This document shows positions 3,065 to 15,965 of a stretch of DNA of 64,000 nucleotides, piece by piece. The stretch's first letter is position 1, and each line of letters begins with the position of its first letter. Source of the DNA: Anaerolineales bacterium (GTDB lineage Bacteria; Chloroflexota; Anaerolineae; Anaerolineales; Villigracilaceae); contig CP129480.1 of assembly GCA_030583885.1 (NCBI GenBank), positions 1,240,001-1,304,000 on the forward strand. Reading direction: 5' to 3'. Under the pieces are notes generated by a model, which was not told the DNA's origin, ran no database searches, and worked only from the letters and a program-made list of their open reading frames with translations. The translations under genes were made by a program, and so were the position numbers.

Positions 3065-3820
3065 TTAATCCTTAATCTGGTCAACGAGACTGCGCAAACC
3101 CTTGGTCACAATGTTGTCCGGGAAGCGGATGGAGAAAATGCCGGAGCTGGCAAGTGTCATCATTTCATCGGAATGCGGCAGCACGGCACCGACTTTCGCG
3201 CCATACGTCTGTTCCACGCGGGTGCGCACATCATCAAAATCAAACGTGGTGGGGACTTTGTTGACCAGCATGAGCATGTTCGGCACATCGAGTTTCTTGG
3301 CAACATCCACCGTGACGGCGGTGCCTTGGTAGTCCTGCGAGTCCGGGCGCAGGATGATGACCAGGGCGTTGGAAATGGCGATGGAAAGCAGGGTTTCCTC
3401 GTTAAGACCCGGGTGTGTGTCGATCAGGAGATAGTCGAGCTTAAGTTTTTCAACGACATCACGGAAGCCGTCATTGAGCAGGCCGACATCATATCCTTCC
3501 CGCAGGATGCGCGCGATCTCGCCGGCTTTAATGCTGGATGGGATCAGGAAAATCTGTCCCTTGATCTCGCCGCCGACATGCCCCGTGACATCGTGCGCCG
3601 CATCTTCAATAGTGCATTTTCCCCACAGGTAATCGTTCAGGGAGTGAACCATTTCTGATTCGTCCAGATTGAACAACACGTGAATACCCGGGGATGCAAT
3701 GTCTGTATCCACAACCCCGACGCGTGCCCCATCCATCGCCAGGAGCGCTGCGATATTGGCCGTGGTGTTGGATTTCCCGGTTCCTCCACGAAACGAGTGA
3801 ATCGATATGATTTTGGACAT
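3065..3820 (-). CDS. MinD/ParA-like P-loop ATPase (paralogue 1)
   Basis: A 251-residue SIMIBI-class ATPase of the MinD/ParA type. The start codon at 3820 (MSKIISIHSF) follows a GGAGAGGG site; the open frame extends further but without homology. The nucleotide loop is FRGGTGKSNTT: the glycine pattern of the deviant Walker A is kept but the signature lysine (KGG) is arginine (RGG). Walker A', VGVVDTDIASPG, and the switch II/Walker B region LLIDTHPGLNEETL are intact. Its closest relative in the window is the paralogue at 8849-9634, with the same RGG change. Family role: dimerising molecular switch that positions partners on membrane or DNA; here the target is unknown. The gene has its own sigma70-like promoter. 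Confidence 0.93.
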   Translation of the reverse strand: MSKIISIHSFRGGTGKSNTTANIAALLAMDGARVGVVDTDIASPGIHVLFNLDESEMVHSLNDYLWGKCTIEDAAHDVTGHVGGEIKGQIFLIPSSIKAGEIARILREGYDVGLLNDGFRDVVEKLKLDYLLIDTHPGLNEETLLSIAISNALVIILRPDSQDYQGTAVTVDVAKKLDVPNMLMLVNKVPTTFDFDDVRTRVEQTYGAKVGAVLPHSDEMMTLASSGIFSIRFPDNIVTKGLRSLVDQIKD

Positions 3821-3871
3821 CTTCCCTCTCCAAGTTTGTGATAGGCTTGCCAAAACAGAGATATTGGGGTG

Positions 3872-5020: not shown

Positions 5021-5121
5021 AGGTATCCCTATTTCACGGCGTTAATCATGTCTGGATTATTCGGATTGAGCTCTGAAAATTTTGAATAACCCGACAATTT
5101 TAATGAATGAAAGGAAAAAAA

Positions 5122-6888
5122 ATGAACATTTCAAAAAAGAAAAAGAATAACAGGATGCGAGGCCTTTTCGTCATTGTTGCGCTGGTGGCTATTTTGTCGC
5201 TTGTGCTTTCTGCCTGTGCGCCTGCGCAGGGTCTTGAAGGCAGTGGTGGTGGCAACCAAGGCGGCGGTGGCAATCAGGGCGGGGGAGGCGGCAACCAAGG
5301 CGGCGGTGGCAATCAGGGCGGGGGAGGCGGCAACCAGGGCGGCGGCGGTGGCGGCAACCAGGGCGGCGGCGGTGGCGGCAACCAGGGCAGTGGCGGCAAC
5401 CAGGGCGGCGGCGGTGGCGGCAACCAGGGCGGCGGCGGTGGCGGCAACCAGGGCGGCGGCGGTGGCGGCAGTCAGGGCAGTGGTGGCGGTGGCAACCAGG
5501 GCGGCGGCGGCGGCAATCAGGGCGGCGGATCCGGACCCAGTCAACCCGGCACCGGTGATCCAAATACCCAAAACCCCGGTGGAGTGGATGTACGCGGCTC
5601 GAAACAAGATCCCTCCGACCCGTGTTTGGATGAAAACCAACTCCCCTGCGGTCAAGGGGATCATGGCAGGGGCAATCCTGTAAAGGGCAGTCTGCATGCC
5701 AATTGTCGGGCCGCCCAAGGTGAAGTAGATCCGGTTTGTACTCCGAAGGATATTCTCCCGCCTCCAAATGACCCGCCGGTCAATCCTCCTCCCGGTGACC
5801 CCCCAGTGGTTGATCCTCCTACAATTGATCCTCCCATTCTGCCTCCTCCTCCGATTGTACAAGTCCCCCCGGCACCCCCGGTGGAGTATGTGAAGAATCA
5901 GCAAGGCGTGGATGTTCCCGCCTGCCCGAACTGGATCGTTTTCCACTCCTTCCGCTCGGGCACTCTGGATGTCTTTCGTCTTGACGGCATCGAAGGATTG
6001 GGAAGTATTGAGGCGATCAACCTGAGCAAAGGCAATTCAATGGACTCGCGTCCCAGCCGTTCACTGAACAATGAATGGGTGGTATTCCAGAGCGACCGTG
6101 ACGGCAATGTTGAGTTGTATCTGACAGACAGCCAGGGCAAATCACAAAATCGCCTGACCCAAACCAATTCGAATAATATCAATGCAATGTTTGGTCCGGA
6201 CAACCAGTCCATAATCTACCAGAGTGACCGCAACGGAAATTGGGACATCTTCCTGTTGAACAAGGATACCGGCCAGGAAGTGCAGTTGACCTCGGATGCG
6301 GCAGATGATGTCAATCCCTTCTGGTCTCCGGACAGGAATTGGATCACATTCCAGTCAAATCGTACAGGCTCCTGGAATGTGTACATATTTAATGTTTCCA
6401 CTGGTACGGAATACCAGGTAACATCCTTCTCGAACGATGTATTGTTCCCAAGCTGGTCGCCGAACGGCAAGCAGCTGGCTTTCTTCGTCAATGTTACCGG
6501 CACTTGGGATCTGTACGTTTCAGACCTGCAGGGCAAAGCCTTCAAACAAATCTCCATTGGCGGAAATGCCGGGAATGCGACATGGTCGCCGGAAGGAAAC
6601 CGCATCGCATATCAGTTGACAATTGGCGGCAACACCGACATATTCACCTACGACTTGAAGACCAACACTGAATATCAATTGACCGATTTCGGTGGCGCGG
6701 ACTCGTCCCCTTCATGGAATTGCGGCGGTACGGATGTCTCTTTCACCTCCACACGCAATGGTGATCCGAACATCTATTCAACCTGGTGGCAGGGCGGCAG
6801 TGATATTTACGAGATCACCAGCCATCCATCCACTGACAAGTGGTCGCAATGGTCGCCGTCTAAGGAGCCAGGCTCTCGCGGTTATTAA
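5122..6888 (+). CDS. lipoprotein with Gly-rich repeat, Pro-rich linker and TolB-like propeller
   Basis: A 588-residue secreted lipoprotein. A Lys-rich N-terminus and hydrophobic stretch end in the lipobox LSAC. Next comes a low-complexity run of NQGGGGG-like units (about 95 residues), a proline/aspartate linker (PPPGDPP...), and a C-terminal beta-propeller made of about seven WD40-like/TolB blades with the recurring WSP.G..I.FQS.R.G..D.. pattern. ATG 5122 is preferred over 5107 because AAAGGA lies at a proper distance from it. Located after the sigma/anti-sigma pair and thus a candidate regulon member. A strong terminator follows. The propeller probably binds a protein or glycan on the cell surface; ligand unknown. 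Confidence 0.9.
   Translation: MNISKKKKNNRMRGLFVIVALVAILSLVLSACAPAQGLEGSGGGNQGGGGNQGGGGGNQGGGGNQGGGGGNQGGGGGGNQGGGGGGNQGSGGNQGGGGGGNQGGGGGGNQGGGGGGSQGSGGGGNQGGGGGNQGGGSGPSQPGTGDPNTQNPGGVDVRGSKQDPSDPCLDENQLPCGQGDHGRGNPVKGSLHANCRAAQGEVDPVCTPKDILPPPNDPPVNPPPGDPPVVDPPTIDPPILPPPPIVQVPPAPPVEYVKNQQGVDVPACPNWIVFHSFRSGTLDVFRLDGIEGLGSIEAINLSKGNSMDSRPSRSLNNEWVVFQSDRDGNVELYLTDSQGKSQNRLTQTNSNNINAMFGPDNQSIIYQSDRNGNWDIFLLNKDTGQEVQLTSDAADDVNPFWSPDRNWITFQSNRTGSWNVYIFNVSTGTEYQVTSFSNDVLFPSWSPNGKQLAFFVNVTGTWDLYVSDLQGKAFKQISIGGNAGNATWSPEGNRIAYQLTIGGNTDIFTYDLKTNTEYQLTDFGGADSSPSWNCGGTDVSFTSTRNGDPNIYSTWWQGGSDIYEITSHPSTDKWSQWSPSKEPGSRGY
5242..5532 (+). repeat. in-frame tandem repeat coding for Gly-rich segment
   Basis: About fifteen imperfect tandem copies of units of 12-21 bases (mostly a 21-base ggc/ggt-rich unit around aaccag) encode NQGGGGG-type heptads. 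All length differences are multiples of three, so the frame is kept. Such an array is prone to slippage and could vary in copy number between strains. Confidence 0.9.
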
Positions 6889-6987: not shown

Positions 6988-8094
6988 ATGATGATTGCCA
7001 TTTCGCTGGGTATTGCATTTCTTGTCCCCCCCCTTTTTTTGCTGGTCCTGCGCAGGCTGAACCTGTATCGCACGGGCAAATATTACATTAATTTCCTTAC
7101 GTTGATCTGGGGTCTGGTTGCCTATTATTTTGCAGCGCAGATCAACCCTGCCATGGTCAATGCCGGCTGGGTCACCTGGGACCAGGTTGTACGCATCACC
7201 GCGCCCATTGTGGAAGAACTGCTGAAGGCCCTGATCCTGATCTACCTCGTTCAGCGCGCTGACTTTAATTATGTCGTGGATGGCGCACTCTATGGGTTTG
7301 GGGCGGGAATAGGTTTTGCCATTATTGAAAACTACGAATATGTGATGGGAAACCCCGAGATCGCGCTGACGGTTGCTGTGGCGCGTGTATTCTCCACCAA
7401 CCTGGTCCATGCCACGGCAAGCGGGTTGATCGGCACGGCGCTGGCCTACCGGCGGGGTGATTCCGGTTCGCGGGGCTGGCTGGTTGTTCTATTTGGTTAT
7501 ATCTTTTCAATATCCATTCATATGGCATTCAATACAATGGTCAGTGCGGGCACCTTCCTGGTATTTGCGGTCATTTTTGGCGCCGTGGGGTTTGGCTTGA
7601 TCTGGTTTGTGATCAAGCGCGGACTTAACGTTCAGAAGGACTGGATGCAGGAAAAACTGGCCACCGGTGACGACCGCGTTACCCGGCAGGAAGTGAAAGC
7701 CATTCAGAATATCGAGGAGTTGAGGGAATTGCTCATTCCCGTGGGGAAACAGTTTGGTGCGGACAAGGTCCCAATGGTTGAGAAAATCATCCTTAATCAG
7801 GCCGAGATGGGCATAAAGCGAAAATTACTTGAGTCGACACCGAATGAAAGTAAAAGAGCCGAGATCGGGAAGATCATCGATGCCCTCGAAAAGGAAGTGG
7901 ATGTTCTGCGGAACGAGGTCGGTTTTTACTGCATGATGTTTGTGAGAAGCGTGTATCTTTCCGCGGATGTAAAGATTTGGAACGCGATCAATCTCCGGGT
8001 TGCCGAGTCAAGTACAGGTCAAAAAGGTGGCGGATTGTGGGACCGCGCCTCCAGTCGTGTACAATCATCCAGGTCAGAGGAGGATGAAGGTTGA
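6988..8094 (+). CDS. PrsW-family intramembrane metalloprotease
   Basis: A 368-residue polytopic membrane protein. The PrsW core is seen in order: EELLKALILI (EExxK zinc/catalytic motif), the glycine-rich helix FGAGIGFAIIENYEY with the conserved ExxE-like element, NLVHATASGLIG with its histidine, and HMAFNTMVS. Residues about 215-368 are a soluble, helical extension rich in charged residues, not present in the Bacillus enzyme. PrsW cleaves anti-sigma factors in Bacillus subtilis (established there). Here the nearest candidate substrate is the membrane protein at 4553-5020. The stop overlaps the TTG start of the cNMP-binding gene by four bases, so the two are translationally coupled. Confidence 0.88.
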   Translation: MMIAISLGIAFLVPPLFLLVLRRLNLYRTGKYYINFLTLIWGLVAYYFAAQINPAMVNAGWVTWDQVVRITAPIVEELLKALILIYLVQRADFNYVVDGALYGFGAGIGFAIIENYEYVMGNPEIALTVAVARVFSTNLVHATASGLIGTALAYRRGDSGSRGWLVVLFGYIFSISIHMAFNTMVSAGTFLVFAVIFGAVGFGLIWFVIKRGLNVQKDWMQEKLATGDDRVTRQEVKAIQNIEELRELLIPVGKQFGADKVPMVEKIILNQAEMGIKRKLLESTPNESKRAEIGKIIDALEKEVDVLRNEVGFYCMMFVRSVYLSADVKIWNAINLRVAESSTGQKGGGLWDRASSRVQSSRSEEDEG

Positions 8095-8825
8095 GCAAAG
8101 ATATCCTTGAACACTTGAAAAAGACGAGTATATTTAGCGGACTTACGGATGACGTGCTTGCCGATGTCGCCCAAAAGGCATCCACGCGCATGCTGGCGAG
8201 AGGTGATATTCTGATGAAAAAAGGGGATGTGGGTGATTCTCTTTTTCTTATCCAACACGGCTGGGTGAAGATCGTGACCGAGGATTCGAAGGGGGATGAG
8301 TTGATCATCAACAAATGCGGTCCCGGGGAGACGATCGGTGAAATGGCTCTGCTTGACCGCAGTACGCGCTCCGCCACTGTGATCGCCCTGGAAGACGCGC
8401 AAGTTTTGGAATTGAAGCAGGATGTTTTTGAAAGGATACTTAACCAGCGCCCGGATGTTTCCCTTTCGATCATTCGCAGTTATTCGGACCGCCTGCGTTT
8501 TTCCACCACGTATATTGAAAAGGCCATTGACTGGTCGCAAAAGATTGCTGAAGGCGATTACTCCTTCATTGAACAGACGCAGCCGTCGGCGGTGAACACC
8601 AATTCCGATGATGACAAGGCTGCGCAGCTGCTCTCCGCGTTCTTTGCCATGGTGCACAAGGTGAAAGAGCGTGAAGACGGTTTGAAACAACAGCTTGAAA
8701 AGCTTACTTTTGAGATCGACCAGGCACGCCGAAAACAGGAGTTTGAAGAGATTACCGGCACGGAGTTTTATGCGCAGCTAAAGGAACAGGCACAGGCTTT
8801 GCGCAAGAAGCGCGCCCAGCAGTAA
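8091..8825 (+). CDS. cyclic-nucleotide-binding protein with coiled-coil tail
   Basis: A 244-residue protein starting at TTG 8091 (GAGGAGG seven bases ahead), overlapping the protease stop. Residues about 10-125 are a cNMP-binding beta-roll; the phosphate-binding cassette GETIGEMALLDRSTRSATV has the Glu and Arg needed to hold cAMP/cGMP. No CRP-type helix-turn-helix follows. Instead residues 140-244 are helical, ending in a tail (EIDQARRKQEFEEITGTEFY...) that matches the tail of the GAF protein at 14397-15287. So it is a cNMP sensor that probably acts through protein contacts, likely on the MinD-like ATPase encoded next. Confidence 0.93.
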   Translation: MSKDILEHLKKTSIFSGLTDDVLADVAQKASTRMLARGDILMKKGDVGDSLFLIQHGWVKIVTEDSKGDELIINKCGPGETIGEMALLDRSTRSATVIALEDAQVLELKQDVFERILNQRPDVSLSIIRSYSDRLRFSTTYIEKAIDWSQKIAEGDYSFIEQTQPSAVNTNSDDDKAAQLLSAFFAMVHKVKEREDGLKQQLEKLTFEIDQARRKQEFEEITGTEFYAQLKEQAQALRKKRAQQ

Positions 8826-8848: not shown

Positions 8849-9634
8849 ATGAACAAAGGTAAAATCGTTTCCATCCATTCCTTTCGAGGCGGTACGGGAA
8901 AATCGAATACCACTGCCAACCTGGCGGCGCAGGTTGCCATGGCGGGCAAGCGTGTGGGCGTGGTGGATACGGATATCCAGTCTCCCGGCATTCACGTTCT
9001 ATTTGGCCTGGATGAGAATAAAATGGGAAAGACCATGAATGATTTCCTGCATGGAAAAGCCACCATTCGTGAAATCGGTTTTTCGATCGGGGAAAACACC
9101 GGCGGTGGAGCGGGACGCGATAAATTGGCCGGCAAGAATCTCTGGCTTTTTCCGTCCAGCATTCGCGGCCGTGAGATCAGCCAGATATTGAAGGAGGGGA
9201 TCGATTTCAACCGTCTGAACGAAGGCTTGCAAACTACGATCACGGAATTTGACCTGGATTATCTTTTTATTGATACACATCCCGGTTTGAACGAAGAGAC
9301 CCTGCTTTCCATCGCCACGTCGGATATTTTGATCATCATCCTGCGGCCCGATAACCAGGATTTACAGGGAACCTCCGTGACCGTTGACATTGCCCGCAGC
9401 CTCGATGTGCCGAACCTGATTCTGATGGTCAATAAGGCCCTGCCCAAATATGATTTTGTCGAACTCAAGAATGAGATCCAAAGCAAATTCAATGCGCCGG
9501 TGGCGGGCATTTTGCCGCTCTCCTTTGACCTTGCGGACAATGCCAGTAACGACCTGTTCTCCCTGAGCTTTCCGGAGCATGAATGGTCGAAGGCGTTGCG
9601 TGAAGTGGCGCAGGTAGTTCTCGCTGTGAAATAG
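8849..9634 (+). CDS. MinD/ParA-like P-loop ATPase (paralogue 2)
   Basis: A 261-residue ATPase closely similar throughout to the protein at 3065-3820. Nucleotide loop FRGGTGKSNTTANL (arginine in place of the signature lysine), VGVVDTDIQSPGIHVLFGLDE, and the Walker B/switch II FIDTHPGLNEETLLSIATSD are clear. It sits between the cNMP sensor (23-base gap) and the zinc-finger peptide (10-base gap) in a five-gene string 6988-10249. GGAGG precedes the ATG. Expected activity: ATP-dependent dimerisation and cargo positioning; whether Arg supports in-trans activation of hydrolysis is uncertain. Confidence 0.94.
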   Translation: MNKGKIVSIHSFRGGTGKSNTTANLAAQVAMAGKRVGVVDTDIQSPGIHVLFGLDENKMGKTMNDFLHGKATIREIGFSIGENTGGGAGRDKLAGKNLWLFPSSIRGREISQILKEGIDFNRLNEGLQTTITEFDLDYLFIDTHPGLNEETLLSIATSDILIIILRPDNQDLQGTSVTVDIARSLDVPNLILMVNKALPKYDFVELKNEIQSKFNAPVAGILPLSFDLADNASNDLFSLSFPEHEWSKALREVAQVVLAVK

Positions 9635-9644
9635 GAGCTGAAAC

Positions 9645-9857
9645 ATGAAATGCTGGCATTGTGAGGAAGCCGCCCGCGCCTCCTGTTCCTTTTGTGGACG
9701 GTTTGTGTGCAAAGACCACGCCGCTACCATGTCCACTTTTTTAACCATGTTCGTCGGCGCGAACAATACCCCCAAAGGTTTGGCAGTTGCGAATGTCATC
9801 TGGTGCGGCGAATGTGAACCGCAGCCCGAACCGATCAGCATGCCCGAACTTTATTGA
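9645..9857 (+). CDS. small zinc-finger protein (B-box-like)
   Basis: A 70-residue protein with cysteine/histidine pairs spaced like a B-box or LIM-type finger: CWHC at 3-6, CSFCGRFVCKDH at 14-25, and CGEC near residue 54. It likely binds zinc and serves as an adaptor. It lies between the MinD-like ATPase and the winged-helix-like gene. AGGAGCTGAAAC precedes the ATG. Named function unknown. Confidence 0.82.
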   Translation: MKCWHCEEAARASCSFCGRFVCKDHAATMSTFLTMFVGANNTPKGLAVANVIWCGECEPQPEPISMPELY

Positions 9858-9874: not shown

Positions 9875-10249
9875 ATGCCCGGAGTCTTTGATCGGTTGAA
9901 TAAAGAGATAGAGGATAAACAGCAGGAGGGAGGCATCACGCCTCTGGACCTGGCTGCACTGCCGCCCGCCCTGCGAAAGATCATGCGTCTGATGCTGCGC
10001 GAACTGCAGATGGATTACCCCAGACTGTGTGAGGCCATGGACGCCATGCCCGAGGCAGAGCGTCTCACCCGTGACGATTTGTCCGCCGCGCTTTCAACAT
10101 TAACCGAGCAGTTCTGGCTGGTTCGGATTGGGGAAGGGCGGAAAGCCATATACAAGGTGAACCTGCGCCGAAAAGAGGGCAGCAAGCTTATTGATGGCAT
10201 ATGGTCTGCGCTGGATGAAAAGTTGAAAGGGAAGCCGAAGGATACCTGA
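9875..10249 (+). CDS. winged-helix-like partner of MinD-type ATPase
   Basis: A 124-residue protein. The N-terminal linker (ITPLDLAALPPALRKIMRLMLREL) is followed by a MarR/winged-helix-like part: a helical pair, LTRDDLSAALSTLTEQFWLVRIGEGRKAIYKVNL (recognition-type helix and a beta-wing). The small gene next to the other MinD paralogue (2706-3038) has the same build. ATG 9875 is chosen because AGAGG lies five bases ahead; the frame reaches back to a TTG overlapping the zinc-finger stop. Last gene of the string, followed by a terminator. Role in DNA binding or as a docking domain is inferred. Confidence 0.82.
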   Translation: MPGVFDRLNKEIEDKQQEGGITPLDLAALPPALRKIMRLMLRELQMDYPRLCEAMDAMPEAERLTRDDLSAALSTLTEQFWLVRIGEGRKAIYKVNLRRKEGSKLIDGIWSALDEKLKGKPKDT

Positions 10250-10254
10250 AAAGA

Positions 10255-10290
10255 AAACGACGGGAGAAAAACCGTCGTTTTTTTATTTTT
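10255..10290 (+). terminator. Rho-independent terminator of the PrsW-MinD operon
   Basis: AAACGACGG / CCGTCGTTT hairpin followed by a run of T; lies between convergent genes and may serve both. Confidence 0.85.
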
Positions 10291-11833
10291 TATCTTCTTC
10301 CTGCATTAGTTCATACAACTGCATGGGCGCATGTTTGCCTTTTAGCGAAACCTCGCCAATGGACATGCACTTGTATTTTGCCTCGATGGCTTTCTTCACA
10401 CGTTCGGAGATGATGATCTGATTCTTTTGCGCGCGGTTCATCAACCGCGCTGCTGTGTTCACTGTGTCTCCCAACACGTTGTATTCACGGCGTCCGCGCG
10501 GTTCGCCAATTTCGGCGACAAAGGCTGGTCCAGCATTAATGCCGATCTGGCAGTATATTTCCGGCTGGATGCCGCCGATGGTGGGCGCCTTAAGGCTGAG
10601 GTTTTTTATGACCTCGCGTATTGCAATCGCCGCGGAAGCGGCGCGTAATTCGTCATTTGTATGTGCGTTCGGCACGCCGAAATAGATGACAATATCCGAC
10701 CCTGCCAGGTGATAGGTGACTTTCTTTAACACGCCGCCGCGCGATTCCACTGCGGCGTTGATCAGTGAAAATGCCCGTGAGAAACTATGGGCTAGTTTGA
10801 TCTCTTCGCCGGGCAATGCCCGGTCCGCAGATTCGGGCAGGCCGATGAAATTTACAAACATAATGGTGGGTTGTGGAAAATCAGGCGGTATTTTTCGGTC
10901 GGCCGCGCTTTCTACGAGCAGGGAAAGGACGGGCGATGGAATATAACTCGCCATCGGCTCGATGCTGTCAAGCAGTTCGATAATCTGGAGCATGACTTCA
11001 TTTTTGTCACGGGTGAGAAGGACATTGCTGGCCATGCGCCGCCCGACCGGTGTGATCTCGTATTCCCCGAGTGCCTTCTCCGAAAGATCGTCCACCACCA
11101 GATAATAATCCGGACTGCCCTCTTCAAAATTGAATTGATCCGCCACCCGCTCGTACGCACTTTTGGAGAGGTTGACCCGCTCGTTTCGGCCCCTGCTTTC
11201 CGTCAGTTTGGCTTGTTGCACATCCCTGCCGAACAATACGTGTTCCATGCGGCGCGGCGTGCCAATCTCTGCTGTGAGAAACCTTCCGCTGTGAATGCCG
11301 ATGCGCATTTGCAGGTTAACGGTGCCGGAGGGCGTTTCGATCTCGGCAAATTCCTTCATCGCTCTTTGCATCCGCAATCCGGCGCGTACCGCGCGCACGC
11401 CGTCGTCATTCTTTTCGCTCTTTGGGAATACGACCAGCATGGCATCGCCTGTAAACTCAACCAGTTCCCCGCCTGATTTGCTGATCACCGAGATCATGGT
11501 CGAAAAATATTTTGTTAATTGCTTCAAAAGGTCTTCCGCACCTTCACGCCCCTTGCTGGAATTTGCCTCCATGAGCTTGGTGAAACCCGCCAGATCGGTG
11601 AACATCATCGTGCCATGCTGCCATTCGGTTTTCACGTCGCCGGGCTTCAGTTTGTTAAGCGCGATCTGCCGCGAGGTGTAGTCATGCAGAGTGCGCTGCA
11701 GCGTCCGCAGGTGTTTGTGGACATTGATCATAATATCCACGGACGGATTGCCCCACATCGAAGCGTACATTTCAGCAGGGAGCAAATAACGCAGACGGCT
11801 TTCGATTGAGGTGAGGGGCGACTCGGGGAGCAT
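10283..11833 (-). CDS. tandem class III adenylate/guanylate cyclase
   Basis: A 516-residue soluble protein with two class III cyclase domains. Domain 1 (about 70-230) has both metal aspartates, D80 in MFTDLAGFT and D130 in FTGDAMLVVF, but Glu126 where the adenine-reading Lys should be and VQQAKL in place of the Asn/Arg motif. Domain 2 (about 320-480) lacks the first Asp (N328 in MFVNFIG) yet has K371 at the adenine position and the catalytic VNTAAR (N459, R463). The two thus complement each other as C1 and C2 do in mammalian enzymes, predicting one working site per chain. Probable source of the cNMP sensed by the product of 8091-8825. A TATAAT box seven bases before the ATG indicates leaderless expression. 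Confidence 0.95.
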   Translation of the reverse strand: MLPESPLTSIESRLRYLLPAEMYASMWGNPSVDIMINVHKHLRTLQRTLHDYTSRQIALNKLKPGDVKTEWQHGTMMFTDLAGFTKLMEANSSKGREGAEDLLKQLTKYFSTMISVISKSGGELVEFTGDAMLVVFPKSEKNDDGVRAVRAGLRMQRAMKEFAEIETPSGTVNLQMRIGIHSGRFLTAEIGTPRRMEHVLFGRDVQQAKLTESRGRNERVNLSKSAYERVADQFNFEEGSPDYYLVVDDLSEKALGEYEITPVGRRMASNVLLTRDKNEVMLQIIELLDSIEPMASYIPSPVLSLLVESAADRKIPPDFPQPTIMFVNFIGLPESADRALPGEEIKLAHSFSRAFSLINAAVESRGGVLKKVTYHLAGSDIVIYFGVPNAHTNDELRAASAAIAIREVIKNLSLKAPTIGGIQPEIYCQIGINAGPAFVAEIGEPRGRREYNVLGDTVNTAARLMNRAQKNQIIISERVKKAIEAKYKCMSIGEVSLKGKHAPMQLYELMQEEDKK

Positions 11834-14396: not shown

Positions 14397-15287
14397 TTAA
14401 TCCCTGGATCTCATTTTTTTTGCCTTGTCCTTCAGTTCCTGAAAGTATTTTGTATCTGTGATCTCCGCCACCTGGCGCGCCCGGCGCGATTCGTCAATTT
14501 CGATTTTCAGTTTGGCAATCTCCTGACGCAGGGAGGCCTCGCGGATATAACCGTCCAGCGCCGCGGTGGCAAGCAGGATCAGGGCTTCCAGCACATCATC
14601 ATCTGAAAACGGAATGATTTCACCGCTCTCAATATCCTTTGCGTTAATCAGTTGCAGGACGCCCATTACCTGTCCACCCTTGTTTTTAAGTGGTACGGTG
14701 AGGAATGATTTGGAGCGATACCTGGTGTTTTCATCGAACGCTTTTGTGCCGGAAAAATCAAACCCATCCGCCCGGTATGCATCCGCAATGCTGACGCGTT
14801 GATGGGTTAATGCGGCATGGGAAGCCACGTTCGAGCGGTTCTCACTGCCGTCATCATTGTGCAGCCGCACCGGTTTAAAAGAGATTGCGTTTCCGCTTGT
14901 CCCGCCCATGGCCAGGTTGAGTGATGTGTTCCGCAAAATCACAAACTTAAGCGCGTCATCCTCCAGCAGATACAATGTGCCTGCGTCGGCATGCGTGACA
15001 GACTGCGCTTCCACAACCAGCGTTTCGAGCAGGCGGTTAAAGTCCTTTTCCGCCGAAAGCGCAACACCGATGGGAATCACCTTTTGCATCAGGCGCAATT
15101 GATTATCGCGAAATGTCACGCCGCGCGCCATTGCATCCAGCATGCGCGCCAGTTGACCCAGGTCGCTGGAATCCCTGACCAGATCGCTTAGGAGATCCGA
15201 CCTGTATTCCCCGGTTTCCACTGCACGGACAGCCTGGATGATCCGTTTAAGTGGAGAAGAGGAGCTAATGACTGTGCGATCTGACAT
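14397..15287 (-). CDS. GAF-domain signalling protein with tail shared with cNMP sensor
   Basis: A 296-residue soluble protein. Residues 10-60 look HAMP-like (RIIQAVRAVETGEY...ELxxLARMLDAMARGV); about 75-245 form a GAF domain (LVVEAQSVTHADAGTLYLLEDDALKFVILRN...FLTVPLKNKGGQVMGVLQLIN) of the type seen in cyclases and kinases. The C-terminal 40 residues (KLKIEIDESRRARQVAEITD... TKYFQELKDKAKKMR) match the tail of the cNMP-binding protein at 8091-8825, so both probably dock on the same partner. No output enzyme domain is present. The start 15287 fits a TATACT box upstream, divergent from nadD. Confidence 0.88.
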   Translation of the reverse strand: MSDRTVISSSSPLKRIIQAVRAVETGEYRSDLLSDLVRDSSDLGQLARMLDAMARGVTFRDNQLRLMQKVIPIGVALSAEKDFNRLLETLVVEAQSVTHADAGTLYLLEDDALKFVILRNTSLNLAMGGTSGNAISFKPVRLHNDDGSENRSNVASHAALTHQRVSIADAYRADGFDFSGTKAFDENTRYRSKSFLTVPLKNKGGQVMGVLQLINAKDIESGEIIPFSDDDVLEALILLATAALDGYIREASLRQEIAKLKIEIDESRRARQVAEITDTKYFQELKDKAKKMRSRD

Positions 15288-15347
15288 TTTTTGCCTGTAA
15301 AAAAGAGTATACCACCAAGGGATGGGGGGGTATGAAAAACTTTGCGA

Positions 15348-15353
15348 TATACT
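15348..15353 (+). promoter_or_regulatory. -10 box of nadD (leaderless)
   Basis: TATACT, six bases before the nadD ATG at 15360; a second TATACT (minus strand, about 15305-15310) serves the divergent GAF-protein gene. Confidence 0.55.
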
Positions 15354-15359
15354 TTGCAC

Positions 15360-15965
15360 ATGTCCAACAACACAATTGGTTTTTTGGGAGGCACATTCGA
15401 CCCGCCCCATATTGGGCACCTCATCCTTGCCGCTGAAGCCGCCCGCCAATTTGAACTCTCACGCCTGCTCTGGGTGCTGACACCGAACCCTCCGCATAAA
15501 CAGGAAAATCCCATCACGCCGCTCGAGCATCGCCTTGCCATGCTGCAGGGCGTGATCGTGGATAACCCAGCCTTTGAATTATCCGGCCTCGAATTCGACC
15601 GCCCCGGTCCGCATTACACGATTGATACCCTCCGACTGCTTGCCAGCCGGGAGCCGAATGCGGACATCCTCCTTTTGATCGGCGGTGACTCGCTTTGGGA
15701 ACTGCCCACCTGGCGCTTCAGCACGGACCTCGTAGCTGTTGTTTCCAAAATCGGCGTGATGCGCCGCCCCGGCGACTTCAGCGACATTTCCGCGCTTGAA
15801 GCGAAACTCCCCGGTGTGACGGAAAAGATCCAGTTCCTAGATGCGCTCCTGCAACCCGTCTCCTCGAGCGAATTACGCCGCCGCATCGCCGCAGGGGAAA
15901 TGTACCGCTATTACGTTCCGCCATCCGTGTACGAATACATCGAAGCAAATCATCTATATCGTTGA
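15360..15965 (+). CDS. nadD: nicotinate-nucleotide adenylyltransferase NadD
   Basis: Joins nicotinate mononucleotide and ATP to deamido-NAD in NAD biosynthesis. The 201-residue product has the nucleotidyltransferase GGTFDPPHIGHL motif (residues 9-20 with the HxGH), the substrate region PHKQ, and the C-terminal SSSELRRRIAAG (ISxTxIR-like) motif. The start at 15360 is supported by a TATACT box six bases upstream and by homology; an upstream in-frame ATG at 15342 would lie within the promoter. Confidence 0.97.
   Translation: MSNNTIGFLGGTFDPPHIGHLILAAEAARQFELSRLLWVLTPNPPHKQENPITPLEHRLAMLQGVIVDNPAFELSGLEFDRPGPHYTIDTLRLLASREPNADILLLIGGDSLWELPTWRFSTDLVAVVSKIGVMRRPGDFSDISALEAKLPGVTEKIQFLDALLQPVSSSELRRRIAAGEMYRYYVPPSVYEYIEANHLYR

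Follow-up and report, generated by a model that had tools for sequence, protein, structure and literature searches.

Human soluble adenylyl cyclase (sAC; ADCY10), represented structurally by sACt (PDB 4clf, 4cll and 4clk), carries two class III domains on one soluble chain. Its C1 domain has both metal-binding aspartates and no Asn/Arg pair, and its C2 domain has an asparagine in place of the first aspartate together with the base-site lysine and the Asn/Arg pair. The second site binds bicarbonate through Lys95 and Arg176 (PMC12867704; PMC12250328); without bicarbonate, Arg176 pairs with the metal-binding Asp99 and blocks the enzyme (PMC12250328; PMC12867704). This bicarbonate site is also altered in many animal sACs (PMC12867704). 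In the mammalian membrane cyclases (AC9, AC5 and AC8), C1 and C2 divide the catalytic work in the same way, but these enzymes have two six-helix membrane anchors. A 2022 review regarded fused dimeric class III cyclases as unknown in bacteria (PMC9552081). The tandem Pycsar cyclase PaPycC of Pseudomonas aeruginosa (PDB 6YII), which belongs to the pyrimidine cyclase family of phage defence, is a bacterial protein with two cyclase domains in one chain (PMC11224242).

Here, we describe a tandem cyclase of 516 residues encoded in a stretch of 64 000 nucleotides of Anaerolineales DNA (the window). It is a real, conserved, single-chain cyclase of the sAC type, and in this respect of a known kind; what is new is the short stand-alone clade to which it belongs, the exchange of K95/R176 for E126/K209 and a strong coupling to other genes. 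We put at roughly 70% the probability that the protein is a soluble adenylyl cyclase in a single chain, built like the catalytic core of human sAC and using the switch and signal path proposed below. The sequence, its conservation, the predicted pairing of the domains, the synteny and the co-occurrence are observations; we infer the activity, the cAMP product, the role of E126 and the path itself.

Cyclase gene and overall structure

The plus-strand reading of positions 10283–11833 is full of stops, and the long open reading frame lies on the minus strand. Pfam Guanylate_cyc (PF00211) matches the encoded protein twice (E = 2.4e-39; 135 bits versus a cut-off of 21.9). The features of the gene are as follows.

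10283..11833, minus strand: stand-alone tandem class III cyclase, 516 residues (open reading frame, two Guanylate_cyc matches, AlphaFold2 model, Foldseek matches to human sAC)
11639..11833, minus strand: conserved N-terminal helical extension, residues 1–65, without a known domain (helices in the model, invariant residues)
11120..11620, minus strand: cyclase domain 1, residues 72–238 (metal-binding D80 and D130, phosphate-binding R177)
10301..10876, minus strand: cyclase domain 2, residues 320–511 (K371, N452, N459, R463 and K500)

The AlphaFold2 model of the whole chain (pLDDT 89.1, pTM 0.89) shows the two domains paired. The N-terminal extension is modelled as four helices (residues 6–14, 20–28, 32–52 and 55–60) and contains many residues that are invariant in the ortholog alignments (e.g. 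R15, H41, L42 and R43). No hydrophobic segment of the cyclase reaches transmembrane strength (maximum 19-residue Kyte–Doolittle mean of 1.09); the model contains no membrane segment, and the two six-helix membrane domains are absent.

Comparison with human sAC and the membrane cyclases

The family profile aligns with human ADCY10 across the two domains without a break (E = 7e-27), whereas its match to the membrane cyclases is weaker and runs mainly through C1. The 24 best PDB matches of the model in Foldseek are all human sAC (E = 1e-27 to 8e-25 over about 490 columns), with TM scores of 0.68–0.71 normalized by query and 0.76–0.79 by target; the soluble core of AC9 follows next in the list (E = 1e-23). 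The predicted overall fold is that of sAC, at a sequence identity of 18–20%. The end-to-end matches to sAC and to the AC9 core, together with the pTM of the model, bear out the original prediction that the domains are able to pair. That prediction had likened the protein to the mammalian membrane adenylyl cyclases: the residue split that it described is right, but the closest comparison is sAC, and we rejected a membrane cyclase as the nearest relative since sAC is better by both profile and fold. The further contrast that it drew with the mammalian enzymes, of a soluble protein made as one chain, falls away, as human ADCY10 is soluble, single-chain and split in the same way.

By our own reading of the alignment to ADCY10, D80 and D130 correspond to D47 and D99, K209 to R176, N328 to the asparagine of the sAC C2 strand VNLM, K371 to K334, and N459 and R463 to N412 and R416. 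R177 corresponds to K144. The position of K95, which sAC C1 keeps as a lysine, is occupied by E126, and that of T405 by N452; the differences at the functional positions are therefore K95/R176 versus E126/K209, T405 versus N452, and K144 versus R177. We take R177 to be the counterpart of AC5 R484. The loop near the second metal position of domain 2 has the same length as that of sAC C2 (KVTYHLAG versus KVFMFDKG). The roles of the sAC residues are taken from PMC12867704 (Table 1) and that of T405 from PMC12250328.

Outside the catalytic domains the two proteins differ at both ends. The cyclase has an N-terminal helical extension of its own, and the AAA and TPR part of full-length sAC is absent, the chain ending after C2. 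Mammalian sACt also lacks the AAA/TPR region, but as a splice form.

Active site, pseudo-site and conservation

Conservation was assessed in two sets of sequences. The close set holds 34 stand-alone copies, made up of the query plus orthologues found in genomes belonging to its own family and order; D80, E126, D130, K209, N328, K370, K371, D380, N452, N459 and R463 are invariant in all of them. The diverse set comprises 39 copies with identities down to 54%, drawn from named Chloroflexota, for the most part Anaerolineales, and from cyanobacteria such as Microcoleus, Tychonema and Kamptonema. D80, D130, E126, R177, K209, N328, N452, N459, R463 and K500 are present in every one of these 39 copies. 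K371 is kept in 36 and replaced by Asn in the other three, K370 is found in 30, and D380, an Asp near the second metal position of domain 2, in 38 (Ser in one). The earlier reading of the residues stands exactly as numbered: domain 1 has D80 and D130, E126 at the Lys position and no Asn/Arg pair, and domain 2 has N328 for the first Asp as well as K371, N459 and R463. The conservation of this split across the diverse copies reflects purifying selection on it rather than chance decay.

The predicted complementary decay with one complete composite site is supported by these alignments, in which the two metal aspartates, the Asn and the Arg of one site (D80, D130, N459 and R463) occur together in 39 of 39 copies. 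Domain 1 would supply the metal aspartates and the phosphate-binding R177, and domain 2 the base-site residues K371 and N452, the transition-state residues N459 and R463 and the phosphate lysine K500, so that residues from both domains would form a single active site. The second interface site is predicted to be noncatalytic: one metal Asp is missing (N328; D380 is retained), E126 stands in place of the Lys, and Q206 and L210 replace the Asn/Arg pair. On the domain 1 side, this pseudo-site is lined by E126, H198, Q206 and K209.

Of the base-recognition pair of sAC (K334/T405), the Lys is thus largely kept and the Thr is replaced by Asn throughout. Adenylyl cyclases typically pair the Lys with Asp or Thr at these positions, and guanylyl cyclases have Glu/Cys. 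K371/N452 is of neither type, and the nucleotide specificity is therefore not fixed by the base site; the assignment of cAMP as the product derives mainly from the family and from the cNMP-binding neighbour described below.

That the pseudo-site could bind a regulator, as originally proposed, is plausible by analogy with sAC, where bicarbonate acts at this site. The sAC bicarbonate pair is absent, however, and E126 and K209 stand in its place in all copies, so that any regulator is unlikely to be bicarbonate in the binding mode of sAC. We propose that E126 replaces the anion and would hold K209 off D130, as bicarbonate holds R176 in sAC; the enzyme would then be independent of bicarbonate and regulated by other means. 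E126 is also the type of residue that guanylyl cyclases have at this position, which counts against the adenylyl cyclase reading. Through the conserved charge exchange, the anion-switch model of sAC can be tested directly.

Genomic setting

The genomic setting of the cyclase is more surprising than the enzyme itself. The cyclase is faced by a convergent row of four genes, and two further genes of the window encode proteins that share features with those of the row.

6988..8094, plus strand: PrsW-type intramembrane protease homologue (Pfam, 4e-22)
8091..8825, plus strand: cNMP-binding (CNB) protein, likely a cAMP receptor (Pfam cNMP_binding, 5.7e-25), with a C-terminal tail at 8673–8819
8849..9634, plus strand: MinD/ParA-type ATPase, related to the NCBIfam KGGVGR-variant ATPases but below the family cut-off
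9875..10249, plus strand: small predicted winged-helix protein, H, convergent with the cyclase (start in the open reading frame list, TTG at 9854)
3065..3853, minus strand: second MinD-type ATPase of the same subtype (profile co-occurrence with the tail)
14397..15449, minus strand: GAF-domain protein ending in the shared tail (tail at 14400–14540; start codon uncertain)

The stop codons of the cyclase and H are 33 bp apart. In Anaerolineales loci with enough flanking sequence the neighbours are often kept (H in 28 of 40, the MinD-type ATPase in 28 of 39, the cNMP-binding protein in 29 of 39 and the PrsW homologue in 26 of 37); in more distant loci they mostly are not, and in some lineages the cyclase and ATPase genes are unlinked. 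The model of H has a winged-helix topology at moderate confidence (pLDDT 68 overall, about 80 in the core), with no hit below E = 0.03.

The phosphate-binding cassette of the CNB protein is intact, with G83, E84, R93, S94 and A95 invariant in 30 of 30 sequences, and Ser/Thr occupies positions 138/139, which by our own superposition on CRP are those used there to read adenine. The protein is likely to be a cAMP receptor, as judged from these residues. The product of the cyclase, most likely cAMP, would be read by this neighbouring protein and passed on to the MinD-type ATPase. In four relatives, the PrsW homologue and the cNMP-binding tail protein form a single open reading frame of 615–621 residues (L066:9067-10911, L068:4880-6724, L075:9000-10856 and L122:6056-7918), and these fusions suggest that the two proteins act together.

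Alternative interpretations

Three other readings were considered. The first is a bicarbonate- or pH-sensing enzyme like sAC itself, for which the common fold and the common second site speak. In insects both positions are Lys (K/K), and pH activates some sACs of animals in which one of the residues is absent (PMC12867704). The sAC site nevertheless requires two positive charges, and neutralizing either of them strongly lowers the bicarbonate response (PMC12867704), whereas residue 126 is acidic in every copy; we consider this reading unlikely. Another view, that the protein is catalytically dead and serves as a scaffold in the form of an ATP- or metabolite-binding pseudo-cyclase, can appeal to the unusual N452, to the copies with K371N and to the deposition of 6YII as an adenylyl cyclase-like ATP-binding protein. 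Dead enzymes normally lose part of their catalytic set, but here one site keeps all of it (two Asp, Arg, Asn, Arg and Lys) unchanged in 39 diverse copies; we regard inactivity as the least probable of the three.

Between these in probability, and also improbable, is a cyclase that uses a different nucleotide, GTP or (as in Pycsar phage defence) a pyrimidine, and whose effector would be the cNMP-binding protein. The base site is not the standard adenylyl cyclase pair, PADLOC PycC profiles match the cyclase (best 1.4e-29), the cNMP-binding protein matches PycTIR profiles and PaPycC, a known tandem Pycsar cyclase, aligns along the cyclase chain. The PycC matches, however, are two partial single-domain alignments for which the shared class III fold suffices, and the fit to 6YII (E = 1.8e-14, TM scores of 0.54–0.58) is much worse than that to sAC (1e-27 and 0.70–0.78). 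PaPycC also has other neighbours. Within the family, the present genes are widespread and vertically inherited, and they occur with PrsW and MinD genes, not defence genes. The Ser/Thr of the CNB neighbour at the adenine-reading position likewise argues against this reading. This neighbour has no TIR, membrane-effector or other toxic effector domain and consists, beyond its CNB domain, only of a coiled coil and the tail, and the PrsW homologue, which forms one frame with it in four relatives, is of no type known as a Pycsar effector. Membership of Pycsar was rejected, as the PADLOC matches are partial class III and CNB matches and no effector domain is present. An adenylyl cyclase of the sAC type remains our preferred reading.

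A shared C-terminal tail and a MinD subtype

The CNB and GAF proteins of the window end in a common tail of 45 residues (EIDxxRRxxxVxEITxTxYFxxLKxKAxxLR), for which there is no Pfam family; our literature search on the tail and on a MinD–cyclase system found nothing. Two further proteins with the tail in the same genome (L154 and L155) are transmembrane sensors, one with a recognized HAMP domain, and in a cyanobacterium the tail ends a CHASE2 protein (L101:9559-11238) beside a MinD-type gene and the short cyclase. The tail-bearing sensors are therefore of CNB, GAF, HAMP and CHASE2 types, all without an output domain.

Co-occurrence was counted in the same 301 Chloroflexota genomes for all components, with the MinD subtype defined as that of the ATPase at 3065–3853 and with kinship ignored. 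On this count, the tail is present in 39 genomes, the MinD subtype in 40 and both in 38. The short cyclase occurs in 20 of the 301, all 20 of which have both the tail and the MinD subtype; H is found in 21, including 19 of the 20 short-cyclase genomes. The pattern persists outside the query's own family (tail 27, MinD subtype 28, both 26; eight of eight short-cyclase genomes with both). Within the family, 28 of the 29 genomes that have the short cyclase carry the tail, compared with 21 of the 71 that lack it. Gene adjacencies in several lineages agree with the co-occurrence of tail and MinD subtype.

Taken together, the co-occurrence and the adjacencies indicate that the most likely partner addressed by the tail is the MinD-type ATPase; the cyclase would probably be one of several inputs to this set. 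The tail had also been considered as a docking piece for the cyclase, since it lies beside tandem cyclases of both the short and the long kind, but this was demoted to second choice: the match to the MinD subtype is far tighter (38 shared genomes versus 20), and the tail adjoins MinD in genomes that lack the cyclase. With 38 shared genomes against 39 and 40 carriers among the 301, the co-occurrence points to a bacterial signalling set that is undescribed and may connect cAMP to a MinD/ParA-type ATPase. The fuller proposal, in which E126, paired with K209, serves as a built-in anion in place of the bicarbonate of human sAC and the cyclase is the cAMP source of a signalling system whose varied sensors (CNB, GAF, Cache-HAMP and CHASE2) address a MinD-type ATPase through one common tail, is tentative and, in our judgement, rather doubtful in its entirety.

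The tail is also found in other contexts. A cNMP-binding tail protein of 238–276 residues lies directly behind long AAA/TPR tandem cyclases (L167:7678-8403, L168:3584-4303, L169:8544-9257 and L170:8462-9289), which are preceded by a second CNB-type protein. In two open reading frames of 862–871 residues (L165:1389-4001 and L166:1839-4424), the tail is located in mid-frame between a GAF region and a C-terminal stretch that looks by eye like an α/β-hydrolase.

Bacterial relatives

The query genome encodes a second tandem cyclase of 1374 residues (G000:C1:3553711-3557835), and many Chloroflexota have proteins of 1360–1500 residues with two cyclase domains followed by AAA_16 and TPR regions, which is the layout of full-length sAC. 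These long proteins share the metal aspartates of domain 1 and the N328 and N459/R463 residues of domain 2 with the short cyclase; the sampled members differ in having Lys at position 126, in most cases Arg at 371 and Thr at 452, and a variable residue at 209. The short family is monophyletic (branch support 100/100) and is adjoined on the tree by the long bacterial tandem copies, whose ATPase part is missing from the stand-alone clade, either through loss or because it was never there. Human ADCY10 joins the long copy of the query genome (L002) on the tree; both are long branches and the join is not interpreted.

As judged from alignments and models, many Chloroflexota and cyanobacteria carry a fused tandem class III cyclase with the residue split of human sAC. 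In sequence and fold, the short and long tandem families and the tandem Pycsar cyclase 6YII (PMC11224242) speak against the view that such fusions are unknown in bacteria (PMC9552081). Small soluble proteins of this kind make it possible to test how pseudo-heterodimeric cyclases arose.

Elsewhere in the window, a glycine-rich repeat array of GGCGGCGGC AACCAGGGC units at 5260–5529 sits inside a PD40 β-propeller protein of 593 residues (5107–6888).
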